Positions 27,451 through 31,490 of a stretch of DNA of 64,000 nucleotides are shown here, one piece after another. A program made the translations under genes and the position numbers. How positions within the stretch are numbered: position 1 is the first letter of the stretch; each line of letters begins with the position of its first letter. The stretch covers positions 248,001-312,000 of the forward strand of contig NZ_JAMQOT010000001.1 of the NCBI RefSeq assembly GCF_029502005.1, given 5' to 3'. Source of the DNA: Natrinema salsiterrestre (GTDB lineage Archaea > Halobacteriota > Halobacteria > Halobacteriales > Natrialbaceae). Below the pieces are notes generated by a model, which saw nothing but the letters and a program-made list of their open reading frames with translations, was not told the origin of the DNA and ran no database searches.

Positions 27451-29991
27451 TTACGAGATCGACGCGGGCGGTCGGCGTTCGTCTCGTTCGTCGGCGGCCG
27501 TCTCGCGGGTCGTTGTTCGGTCCGTGATAGCGCCGTCGCCGAGCAGCGTCTCGAGCACGTCCGTCGCCGCGGGCGCGTACAGCGGTCGGTTGTCGTTGCC
27601 ACAGCGGTCGCTCATGAGGCAGGCCGGACACCCTTCGTCGCGACCGCAGCCGCAGTCCGTCACGAGGTCCCGAGCCCTGCGGGCGACCGCCTCGTACTCC
27701 TCGTAAATCCGTCGCGAAAAGCCCAGCCCGCCCTCGACGCCGTCGTAAATGAACCAGCCGCTCTTCTCGGGGGTATCAGGCAGCCGATTGGTCGCGAGAC
27801 CGCCGAGGTCCGCCGCGTCGACCGTCAGCTCGAGCGGCGCGACGGCGATCATTGCGTGTTCGACGGCGTGAATCCCGCCGAGGTAGCCGTGGAGCCGCGG
27901 CGGCAGGTCCTCGCAGCCGTCATTGTGGTAGTCACTGTGTGCGGTCGTCACGGCGCGTTCGACGTCGTTCGGCACTTCGGCCCAGCACAGCTGGGTGCGC
28001 ATCTCAAGGGGCGGGACGCCGGTCTCGAGGCCGACCGCGCGAACGTCGCCCGAGCCGATTTCCCGTTTCATGAACGTCCCGTGGTGGACCGTGACTGTTC
28101 CGTATCCCCAGTTGAGTCGGAACGGGCCGACGTCGCGGGACTCCTCGATCTCGGTATCGTAAATCGTCGTCTGGCGCTGGGATTGCGTGTAGTAGTCGAC
28201 GTCGCACCGCTCGAGCGCCACGTACGGCTGCGGTCGGTCCTCGCGGAGTTCGACGACCTCGTACTGGTCGCCCCGATAGAGGACCGTCGCACCCTCGTGA
28301 TAGTCCCGGTACGCGCGCGCCGTGCCGATCGGCTCGTGATCGAACGACTCCTCGCCGGCCAGCCGGACCTCGAACGAGTCCCCGCCGGAGGCGTAGAGAT
28401 CGATCCCGTCCTGGGGTCGATCGCGGTGGGCGTAGGTCACCCCGCCCTCGAGCGATCCCTCGAAGTCGCCCGTCCGCCGACCGTACTCGACGGCCCGCTC
28501 GAGGCGATCGCTTCCGCCGAACCGGGCCGCGTCCTCGCGGCGCAGGGGCAGTTCCTGTGCCGCACAGCGCAGGTGCTGGAGGTAGACCGGGTTGTTCTCG
28601 AGGTCGACCACTGCGCTCTCGGGCTCCTCCTCGAGGACGTACTCGGGATGGCGGAGGATGTACTGATCGAGCGTCGAGTGGCTCGGAACGAACACGGAGA
28701 GCGCCTCCCGTTCGTCGCGTCCCGAACGGCCGATCCGCTGCCAGAACGACTGTCTCGAGCCCGGATAGCCCAACAGGACGGTGCCGTCGATGCCGCCGAC
28801 GTCGATCCCGACCTCGAGCGCGCTCGTCGTCGCGACGCCATCGAGCGCGCCGCTCTTGAGTCGGTTCTCCGTTCCGCGTCGGGATTTCTTCCCGTGGCCC
28901 GCGTTGTAGGCGGCGAGGTCGGTCGCGTCTCGGTACGGGAGGCCCGGAGTCTCGAGGTACTCTCGCGCCCGCCCGACTGCCAGTTCGGTCTGCTTTCGCG
29001 AGTCACAGAACAGCAGCGACGGGACGCCGCGATCACAGCAGTGGGCCCAGACCTCGGGCGCTTCGACGGTCGCGGGGCGTTTGCCGGGCGACCACTCGGA
29101 GTCGGCGTCGTCGGAATCGCCTTCATTCGATCCGTCGCCGTATCCGCTATCGTCCGCTGGCGGGTCCCAGAAGAGGAGGTGCCGACGGCCGCTGGGCGAG
29201 CCGTCCTCGTCGATCACCGCCGCCGGCTCGCCGGTCAGCGCCTGCGCGTGCTCGGCGGGGTTGCCGATCGTCGCGGTCGTCAGCACGTACTGGGGGTCGC
29301 CGCCGTACCAGTCGATCAGTCGCCGAATCCGACGGAGGATCCAGGCGGCGTGCATCCCGCTGATCCCGGTCCACGCGTGGGCCTCGTCGATCACGATCAG
29401 GTCGCAGTTCGAATGGAACGCGGCCCAGCGGTGGTGGCCCTCGAGATACTGATTCAACCCCGCGAAGTTCGTGATGACGACGTTCGCCTCCTCGCGGATG
29501 CGCGACTTCTCCCCTCGCTTCGTGTCGCCGTCGTAGACGCCGACCGTGACGTCCAGCCCCAGCGCGTCGTAGAGGTCGTTGAGCTCGCGCTCCTGATCGC
29601 GGCTGAGCGCTTTCGTCGGATAGACGAGGAGCGCACGAACGTCGGGATTTTCTCGAAATTGTCGGGCGATCTCCAGTCCGTAGACGTAGGTCTTGCCCGA
29701 CGACGTCGAGGTCGCGACGCAGACGTTCTCCCCGCCCTCGAGGGCCTCGAGGGCCTCGGCCTGGTGGCTCCACGGATCGACGTCGAGTTTCGCCGCGAGA
29801 TCCGCCGGCAACACCTCTCGAGCCGGGACGTGGCTGGCGGACTCCGCGGACAGGGTGACCCGCTCGCGGGCCTGTCCGTGGTAGCGCTTCGACGGATACG
29901 TTTCGATCAGTTCCTCGCCCGTCAGTGCGAGGTCGTTCGATCCGGTGTCGTCCCACCCGTCAGTCAGGGGTTCAGTGTCGTCAGTTGGCAT
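27451..29991 (-). CDS. DEAD/DEAH-box helicase with DUF1998/MZB zinc domain (MrfA/Hrq1-like)
   Basis: An 846-residue superfamily 2 DNA helicase. Motif I is TSTSSGKT (94-101), the box is DEAH (202-205), motif III is TAT (239-241), and motif VI is QRIGRSGRDER in the second RecA domain. The C-terminus has the MZB cysteine module CGCGRDEGCPACLMSDRCGND (about 780-800). This layout is that of Bacillus MrfA (YprA) and eukaryotic Hrq1, 3'-5' helicases that act on crosslinks and mitomycin lesions. An acidic insertion at about 288-310 is halophile-specific. It is 2 bp downstream of the exonuclease gene, so the pair is almost certainly one operon. Confidence 0.9.
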   Translation of the reverse strand: MPTDDTEPLTDGWDDTGSNDLALTGEELIETYPSKRYHGQARERVTLSAESASHVPAREVLPADLAAKLDVDPWSHQAEALEALEGGENVCVATSTSSGKTYVYGLEIARQFRENPDVRALLVYPTKALSRDQERELNDLYDALGLDVTVGVYDGDTKRGEKSRIREEANVVITNFAGLNQYLEGHHRWAAFHSNCDLIVIDEAHAWTGISGMHAAWILRRIRRLIDWYGGDPQYVLTTATIGNPAEHAQALTGEPAAVIDEDGSPSGRRHLLFWDPPADDSGYGDGSNEGDSDDADSEWSPGKRPATVEAPEVWAHCCDRGVPSLLFCDSRKQTELAVGRAREYLETPGLPYRDATDLAAYNAGHGKKSRRGTENRLKSGALDGVATTSALEVGIDVGGIDGTVLLGYPGSRQSFWQRIGRSGRDEREALSVFVPSHSTLDQYILRHPEYVLEEEPESAVVDLENNPVYLQHLRCAAQELPLRREDAARFGGSDRLERAVEYGRRTGDFEGSLEGGVTYAHRDRPQDGIDLYASGGDSFEVRLAGEESFDHEPIGTARAYRDYHEGATVLYRGDQYEVVELREDRPQPYVALERCDVDYYTQSQRQTTIYDTEIEESRDVGPFRLNWGYGTVTVHHGTFMKREIGSGDVRAVGLETGVPPLEMRTQLCWAEVPNDVERAVTTAHSDYHNDGCEDLPPRLHGYLGGIHAVEHAMIAVAPLELTVDAADLGGLATNRLPDTPEKSGWFIYDGVEGGLGFSRRIYEEYEAVARRARDLVTDCGCGRDEGCPACLMSDRCGNDNRPLYAPAATDVLETLLGDGAITDRTTTRETAADERDERRPPASIS

Positions 29992-29993
29992 GA

Positions 29994-31490
29994 TCAGAAG
30001 TCGGCGAGGCCGGTCTGCGTCGCGTCGCTCGTCGATTCATCTCCGTTCTCGGCTGTCGTGTCCCCTCTTTCGGGCGGGGCTGCCACGATCGCGTCGTAGA
30101 CTGCGGCCAGTTCGCGAACGTCGGCTTCGCAGTAGCCTCGAGCGGCGTCCCAGTCGATCTCCGAGGGGGATTCGGTACTCTCGTCCGTATCGGATCGACG
30201 CGAACGCGAGCCCTCGAGCGACCGCCGAATCCGCTCCGCCAGCGTCTTCCCGTCGAGCGCTGCCGCGGCTCCCGCCCGCTCACAGCCCAGCGCCTCGGCC
30301 ACGTCTTCGAGACGGTTCGTTCGGCCCGGTAAGACGGCGTTCTTCCGCCGGACGGCCCAGTCGTAGGGATCGTACGTCGAGACGTGCTCGCGCCAGAAGT
30401 CGCGGTACTCGGGGACGTAACTGGCGACGAACCGCTCGAGGTGTTCGTAATCGAACCCGTGACCGTTCCACGCGACCAGCGACGGCGCATCGTACTCGGC
30501 GGCCAGCCACGAGACGAACTCGCGGGTCGCGGCGCCCGGCTCGTCGCGGCTCGGGTCGGTGTCGACGAAGTCGACGTACTCGTCGCGAGCGGGATCGTAG
30601 ACGCCGACGAGCCAGATGATCGTCGGCTGGAGCCCGTCGGTTTCGATGTCGACGAACAGCGGCGTCGCCGTTTCGGCCGCCGGCGGAACGGACTCGTCCG
30701 TCCGGCGGATCACTTCGGAGCCGGCGAGCGCACGCGCGCTCTGTGCCAGTTCCCGTGCCGTAGTCGCGCCGATCCCGGGGAGCGAACGCAGGTCCGGCTC
30801 GGCGGCCTCCGCGACGGCCGCGCGCGTGTCGTAGCCGTTCTCTCGGAGCCGCGCTGCCGTCGCCGGTCCGACGCCGGCGAGCGCCCGCAGTCCGAACCGG
30901 TCCGCCGGCACGGACGAGACCGCGACCGAGCCGCGCCGGTCGCAGGTGAGGCAGGCGAGTTCCGCCGCCCCGGAGCGCCGCAACGGGGCGACGCCGCGTA
31001 CCGGCAGCCGAACCGGCCGGCCGTCGACGGTCGCGTCCCAGACGTGATCGTAGCTCGCCTCGAGCGCACCGGTGAGGACGGTCGGCGACTCGCTCGCTCG
31101 AACGTGGTAGCGGGCGACGGACTTTCCACCGGCGAGGGTCGCCTCCAGCGCGACGGCGTCCGTCGTCGGCTCGATATCGTCGCAGACGATGAAGTCGGCG
31201 GGCGGTGCGTCGTCGAGAGCGTCCTCGAGCAGCGCCGCCGAACCCGCGAAGACGAACGAGACACCAGCTACCGTCTCCGTCCGACCGTCGGCGGGGCCGC
31301 TCGCGGCGACGACCGGCCCGTCGAACGCGCGACGGACGCGGCTCAGGACGCGGACGTCCGCGGATTCGCGAACGACGTAGACGAGATCGGGGTCGAAGTA
31401 CTCCAGTACGTCTCGCAGCGCTGCCGCTCCCAGATCGGACACGGCATCACAGCGGAGTGCCAACAGCTCGGCACCGACCTCGTCGGCCAT
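29994..31490 (-). CDS. DEDD exonuclease with RNase H-like fold and HhH repeats (MrfB/YprB-like)
   Basis: A 498-residue protein. The C-terminal half (about 276-470) is an RNase_H_2/YprB-type exonuclease: FVDIETDG with D281 and E283, NGHGFDYEHL with D347, and YCEADVREL with D457 and Y453 (a DEDDy arrangement). Between 200 and 260 are two helix-hairpin-helix segments (LAGVGPATAARL, LPGIGATTARELA). The first 190 residues are less conserved and contain CLTC (180-183), possibly metal-binding. In Bacillus subtilis MrfB is the exonuclease partner of MrfA. The order exonuclease-helicase with a 2-bp gap mirrors that pair; the HhH and N-terminal parts differ from MrfB. Confidence 0.85.
   Translation of the reverse strand: MADEVGAELLALRCDAVSDLGAAALRDVLEYFDPDLVYVVRESADVRVLSRVRRAFDGPVVAASGPADGRTETVAGVSFVFAGSAALLEDALDDAPPADFIVCDDIEPTTDAVALEATLAGGKSVARYHVRASESPTVLTGALEASYDHVWDATVDGRPVRLPVRGVAPLRRSGAAELACLTCDRRGSVAVSSVPADRFGLRALAGVGPATAARLRENGYDTRAAVAEAAEPDLRSLPGIGATTARELAQSARALAGSEVIRRTDESVPPAAETATPLFVDIETDGLQPTIIWLVGVYDPARDEYVDFVDTDPSRDEPGAATREFVSWLAAEYDAPSLVAWNGHGFDYEHLERFVASYVPEYRDFWREHVSTYDPYDWAVRRKNAVLPGRTNRLEDVAEALGCERAGAAAALDGKTLAERIRRSLEGSRSRRSDTDESTESPSEIDWDAARGYCEADVRELAAVYDAIVAAPPERGDTTAENGDESTSDATQTGLADF

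Follow-up and report, generated by a model that had tools for sequence, protein, structure and literature searches.

The window analysed here is a stretch of 64,000 nucleotides from the haloarchaeon Natrinema salsiterrestre (contig NZ_JAMQOT010000001.1, positions 248,001 to 312,000). Between positions 27451 and 31490 its minus strand carries two adjacent genes, one for an exonuclease and, after a gap of 2 bp, one for a YprA/MrfA-type helicase. An earlier reading of this DNA from its letters alone (the sequence-only reading) had described this adjacency and spacing, and both are borne out by the open reading frames (ORFs) 29994-31490(-) and 27451-29991(-). The features of the pair are the following.

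29994..31490 (-): exonuclease gene, 498 aa, first of the pair (ORF; PF13482 and helix-hairpin-helix (HhH) matches; helicase neighbour in 80/80 loci)
30897..31490 (-): N-terminal domain of the exonuclease, residues 1-198, predicted metallophosphoesterase fold lacking the metal-binding motifs (AlphaFold2 (AF2) model, Foldseek and VIA, conservation, solo paralogue)
30720..30890 (-): tandem HhH motifs, residues 201-257 (HHH_5 and HHH, Pfam)
30069..30674 (-): predicted DEDDy exonuclease domain, residues 273-474, with D281, E283, D347, Y453 and D457 (PF13482, fold of polymerase-B (PolB) type at Z 13-15, conservation)
29997..30017 (-): C-terminal motif QTGLADF, residues 492-498, like a PCNA-interacting protein (PIP) box and putatively PCNA-binding (conservation, background counts, likeness to Fen1)
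27451..29991 (-): YprA/MrfA-type helicase gene, 846 aa, second of the pair (ORF, PDB match, Pfam, tree)
29260..29769 (-): RecA1 (DEAD) domain, residues 75-244 (PF00270 1.2e-25)
28717..29028 (-): RecA2 (Helicase_C) domain, residues 322-425 (PF00271 5.7e-10)
28489..28608 (-): HRQ1-type winged-helix region (WHD_HRQ1), residues 462-501, partial match (PF22982 7.3e-7)
27616..27864 (-): MrfA Zn-binding (MZB) domain, residues 710-792 (PF09369 4e-19; Cys 780/782/788/791)
27454..27477 (-): conserved helicase C-terminal peptide RRPPASIS (tails of relatives)

Relatives were gathered in two ways, by searching 146 genomes of the order and by independently scanning named genomes. In all 80 haloarchaeal loci of the scan, chosen by the exonuclease alone, the helicase gene comes directly after the exonuclease gene on the same strand, and in nearly all of them the two genes overlap or are a few tens of bases apart (ORF starts were set mechanically and are sometimes too early). 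This adjacency is well beyond chance. The pairwise identities of exonuclease and helicase between loci are strongly correlated (r = 0.97, 76 loci), and near-identical pairs (89-98% for the exonuclease, 93-97% for the helicase) are found across Haloferax, Halosimplex, Halorarius and Natronolimnohabitans. Hence, the two genes move together. The genome of the window harbors a second exonuclease-helicase pair on contig C1 (35% and 47% identical), and it also encodes UvrA.

Domains of the exonuclease

The exonuclease matches RNase_H_2 (PF13482) at 3.8e-17, and its active site is formed by D281, E283, D347 and D457, with Y453 as the fifth residue. The sequence-only reading had listed D281, D347 and D457 correctly, E283 and the fifth residue not being named there. 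Tyr453 is invariant in 22 homology-selected sequences (alignment A1) and in 79 pattern-selected ones; the patterns used to select the latter include residues around D281 and Y453, so that this count is biased there and the one from the 22 sequences is the more trustworthy. The AF2 model obtained with 75 relatives in the input is confident (predicted local distance difference test, pLDDT, 90.5), and in it residues 273-474 resemble the proofreading exonucleases of B-family polymerases (best Z 15.0, root mean square deviation 3.0, 170 residues).

In Bacillus subtilis MrfB the fifth catalytic residue is His258 (PMC11194089), and the methanogen partners likewise have His there. A 32-row tree of the exonuclease domain, which is short and gives long branches, separates the haloarchaeal paired exonucleases, together with a solo haloarchaeal protein of a phosphoesterase-exonuclease lineage, from Bacillus and methanogen MrfB (support 100/99), and despite the small size of the tree the tyrosine agrees with this split. 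A phmmer search with the exonuclease gave no MrfB match at E<1, and the profile match to MrfB was weak (0.075) and did not span the whole domain. MrfB was not among the 50 VIA structure matches listed for the full model, which does not speak against a common fold. No Pfam TPR match, the C-terminal feature of B. subtilis MrfB, was found in the exonuclease, where only a low-confidence tail follows the catalytic domain. Of the earlier assignment to YprB-type DEDD exonucleases, then, the RNase_H_2 superfamily, the DEDD residues and the helicase neighbour stand, while the DEDDy rather than DEDDh site, the position in the tree, the PIP-like tail and the phosphoesterase-fold N-terminus depart from it. 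Judged from its sequence, the exonuclease is not an orthologue of MrfB, and its kinship to YprB/MrfB is no closer than the superfamily. Two other origins were considered and rejected. A RecB-fusion origin was weighed because the HhH and RNase_H_2 part aligns with TM0106/TIGR03491 (E 1.2e-9), but none of the haloarchaeal matches reaches the cut-off of that model, and all of them begin only near its position 206. The fold predicted for the N-terminal domain is, besides, that of a phosphoesterase, and the exonuclease was therefore not counted as a member of TIGR03491. PfuExo I was likewise discarded as a relative, since it is reported to have no conserved 3'-5' exonuclease motif and to occur in Thermococcales only (PMC3591345).

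The two HhH motifs claimed from the sequence are recovered by Pfam as an HHH_5 match (4e-11) and two HHH stretches. The preceding N-terminal domain, folded alone by AF2, reached a pLDDT of 90.8. Its top VIA matches all belong to the metallophosphoesterase superfamily at moderate scores (Z 7.8-10.0), Rv0805, GpdQ, TT1561 and SbcD/Mre11 included, and those of Foldseek include 1uf3 (E 8.2e-4), Vps29 (E 3.0e-4) and, from polymerases alpha, zeta and delta, the B-subunits. The domain is thus predicted to have a calcineurin-like phosphoesterase fold, a call supported by the uniformity of the match list and by the Pfam Metallophos domain found at the same place in solo haloarchaeal proteins of 481 aa. 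A profile-only alignment with the phosphoesterase of this solo paralogue gave a probability of 1.2%, the link between both resting on fold and position. None of the metal-binding motifs D-x-H, GD, GNH, H and GHxH is among the invariant or near-invariant positions of 70 relatives, and a metal-site phosphoesterase activity was rejected for this reason. The missing motifs also make a binding or scaffold surface more likely than an enzyme. The CLTC motif to which the sequence-only reading had drawn attention is present in the protein of the window but is not conserved, the column of C180 being Cys in 14/79 relatives and that of C183 in 34/79, and was discarded as a metal site.

The solo proteins (L267, WP_254810564.1) share with the exonuclease of the window the phosphoesterase domain, an HhH-like region and the DEDDy RNase_H_2 domain, and for HhH plus exonuclease their profile match to the window family is 99.5% over 267 columns. 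They differ in that their Metallophos domain is recognised by Pfam, they carry no PIP tail, and no helicase partner was seen in two neighbourhoods. Their genes (L267:1310-2755 and L268:4287-5732) are plasmid-borne, each divergent from a gene for an SOS response-associated peptidase (SRAP).

Behind a variable linker, in a low-confidence part of the AF2 model, the exonuclease ends in Q492-x-x-L495-x-D-F498. In the relatives Q is found in 79/79, L in 78/79 and F or W in 79/79, and these residues lie outside the selection patterns. Among 576 flanking ORFs similar endings occur in 8 by a loose pattern and in 1 by a strict one. Fen1 of the same genome (L158) ends in VTQTGLDRWT, TQTGL being common to both proteins. 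For archaea the PIP consensus is QxxLxxFx, and the published lists of PIP-box proteins include Fen1 (PMC7776575; PMC4929162). Compared with the canonical box, the second aromatic position is absent from the exonuclease, because the chain ends first. From its sequence, the tail is a likely PCNA-binding motif. The portion consulted of a review of non-core archaeal PCNA binders (PMC4929162) covers NucS, NreA/NreB and TIP, and an exonuclease of the window type was not found in that portion.

Helicase, distribution and genomic context

The best solved relative of the helicase is B. subtilis YprA/MrfA (6znp, E 8.6e-105, residues 70-795). The MrfA/Hrq1 layout read from the sequence, a superfamily 2 (SF2) core followed by a four-Cys MZB domain, was recovered by the Pfam matches and Cys 780/782/788/791. 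In the helicase tree the paired helicases of haloarchaea group together (100/99) and are separate from the DruE-type outgroup; they are placed with bacterial MrfA, with helicases from the other Halobacteriota and with the unpaired YprA proteins of haloarchaea and are nested in none of these groups, the branching order among the MrfA/YprA groups lacking resolution. The root was set on two DruE-type (Druantia) helicases encoded in the genome of the window, both of them long branches and the sole defence sequences included. Hence the membership of the MrfA/Hrq1 clade proposed earlier holds in a weak sense, on the MrfA/YprA side against DruE, but as a branch of its own and not within bacterial MrfA. 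PADLOC scores of the window helicase for Druantia-, DISARM- and ARMADA-type defence helicases were low. The C-terminal end of the helicases of L074-L153 is RRPPASIS/VS in the clade of the window and RRPPLFYS/A in a second clade, and is absent in a third. The genome of the window encodes a DruE1-like protein scoring 1566 bits for Druantia type I (L269, G000:C2:55500-66000), and a second DruE-like helicase, of 1575 aa, is on the contig of the second exonuclease-helicase pair (L270, G000:C1:86500-100000).

In 122 good genomes of the order the pair was found in 48 and an unpaired YprA helicase in 64, both occurring together in 9. Within families the pair and the unpaired helicase avoid each other (17.4 joint occurrences expected, Cochran-Mantel-Haenszel p 3e-6, odds ratio 0.05); the lists were read by hand from genome searches, and the control acts at the family level, kinship inside families being uncorrected. 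The mutual avoidance fits overlapping functions, and lineage effects could be another cause.

The copy in the window lies among metabolic and housekeeping genes, including glnA and thioredoxin (both Pfam-supported). Natrinema-type chromosomal copies near to it likewise have glnA close by, as well as a small gene for a putative winged-helix protein (assigned by eye), and other chromosomal copies adjoin thyA/folA-like genes, also identified by eye. Of the seven annotated plasmid copies, four are among repair- or defence-type genes and three have metabolic neighbours. The plasmid copies in L256 (80451-99460 of NZ_CP101159.1), L260, L261 and L266 cluster with genes of the former type, for pAgo, SIR2 or Mre11-like/SMC proteins, a PLD/tyrosyl-DNA phosphodiesterase, a ThiF/JAB protein, a second YprA-like helicase or small hypothetical proteins, which may point to a recurrent mobile repair/defence cluster. 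On Halobacterium salinarum R1 pHS3 a third gene, annotated as ribonuclease H-like (L264:10530-11174, OE_RS12860), directly follows the pair (OE_RS12870/OE_RS12865). In four loci of one clade the gene for a 316-aa protein (L151:4894-5844; homologues in L149, L150 and L152) lies some 94 bp upstream of that for the exonuclease, and no Pfam match was obtained for the L151 protein.

Proposed function of the pair and its rivals

MrfAB couples a 3'-5' helicase with a 3'-5' exonuclease (PMC12458937, PMC11194089). On the gene order, domain make-up, conservation, phylogeny and co-inheritance described above, we consider it rather probable that the haloarchaeal pair is a helicase-exonuclease unit, tethered to PCNA, for the removal or resection of damaged strands. 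The helicase would translocate 3'-5' and, where there is a lesion or a stalled fork, unwind the DNA, and the exonuclease would digest the exposed strand 3'-5' through its polymerase-B-like DEDDy site. The HhH motifs would hold the exonuclease on DNA, the C-terminal PIP motif would hold it on the sliding clamp PCNA at the site of replication or repair, and the N-terminal phosphoesterase-like domain would act as a binding or scaffold surface, possibly for the helicase. In this way haloarchaea would use an alternative partner, of a different RNase_H_2 lineage, for the same type of helicase, working like bacterial MrfAB. Enzymatic activity, polarity, complex formation and PCNA binding are inferred, and the natural substrate may be bulky-adduct or crosslink damage. 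Since UvrA is present in the genome, the pair would act alongside UvrABC or as an auxiliary to it. A more detailed proposal, which we hold tentatively, is that MrfB has been replaced by a PCNA-tethered exonuclease assembled from HhH motifs, a PolB-type proofreading domain and a metal-less phosphoesterase domain, whose fold also occurs in replicative polymerase B-subunits, and that the pair moves between chromosome and plasmid as a unit exchangeable with unpaired YprA.

Several observations weigh against a PCNA-tethered repair unit. The pair has a patchy distribution and many copies are plasmid-borne, which is not what a core repair pathway would show; it fills no missing excision system, given the presence of UvrA; several plasmid copies are beside defence-type genes; the exclusion with unpaired YprA is controlled only at the family level; the proposed link to PCNA depends on a motif of 7 residues; and no phenotype or biochemistry of the haloarchaeal pair was found in the open-access literature searched. 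Some of these features would suit a defence or plasmid-competition module that degrades invading or rival DNA, the clamp motif directing it to replicating DNA. The plasmid neighbours listed above, with E1-E2 PADLOC hits for the ThiF/JAB protein, point in that direction, as do the patchy distribution, the two pairs in the genome of the window, the near-identical pairs in different families and the defence role of helicases in other branches of YprA (PMC12458937). However, the window copy, its chromosomal relatives and three other annotated plasmid copies are among metabolic genes, the helicase lacks the extra length of the defence YprAs and is apart from DruE in the tree, and no PADLOC model exists for the exonuclease. 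We regard such a module as unlikely, less so than the next two explanations.

Replication-linked trimming of 3' ends or fork resection when PolB or PolD stall, with no lesion specificity, would account for the PolB-type DEDDy fold, for the PIP-like motif common to Fen1 and for an N-terminal fold found also in polymerase B-subunits. Yet the pair is dispensable in most haloarchaea and its chromosomal context has no link to replication genes, which makes this role improbable. The similarity of the helicase to MrfA, the shared superfamily and the adjacency are what a true archaeal MrfAB orthologue pair would display, with a DEDDh exonuclease to which HhH motifs had been added, dedicated to interstrand-crosslink repair; against it stand the tyrosine in place of histidine, the split in the domain tree and the near absence of phmmer and profile similarity to MrfB, and we consider it very unlikely.

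If the PCNA-tethered unit is real, the pair would join NreA as a PCNA-linked damage-tolerance factor in haloarchaea, where UvrABC and the interaction of NreA with PCNA take part in mitomycin repair in Haloferax volcanii (PMC7776575), and it would provide an archaeal system in which small mutations separate helicase, exonuclease and clamp. Were the pair instead a plasmid defence module, it would place YprA-type defence outside the branch where such systems have been described.

Comparison with known systems

The association of MrfA with MrfB and its wide range are already published. For archaeal MrfA/MrfB or YprA/YprB the only relevant find was a 2025 YprA preprint, and the open-access literature searched yielded no account of a haloarchaeal pair whose exonuclease is DEDDy, has a phosphoesterase fold and bears a PIP motif. 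The YprA-like helicases of Druantia (DruE), DISARM (DrmA) and ARMADA share with the window helicase the YprA superfamily core and the MZB/DUF1998 domain, but they are larger or split, have other partners and are distant in the tree. The unpaired haloarchaeal YprA helicases belong to the same family as the window helicase (33-38% identical), and an exonuclease gene was beside them in none of ten neighbourhoods. Closer in arrangement are the pairs of non-halophilic Halobacteriota found in this analysis, which have the same gene order and helicases 35-39% identical to that of the window. In these pairs, however, the exonuclease is of about 360 aa with an HN..D (DEDDh) site and no C-terminal PIP, and the helicases form a separate clade.

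The B. subtilis MrfA-MrfB (YprA-YprB) system likewise consists of adjacent genes for a helicase and a 3'-5' exonuclease of the RNase_H_2 superfamily, the helicase having an SF2 core, an HRQ1-type winged helix and MZB. The haloarchaeal pair differs in that the exonuclease gene comes first and the helicase forms its own clade, and its exonuclease is DEDDy instead of DEDDh, with a phosphoesterase-fold N-terminus, two HhH motifs, a PIP-like C-terminus and no TPR match. The bacterial MrfAB route for mitomycin damage was described only recently, and little is known of its partner protein, its link to the clamp and its range in archaea. If the same job is done in haloarchaea by an unrelated exonuclease with its own PCNA handle, the key property of the partner would be that of a 3'-5' exonuclease brought to the site.

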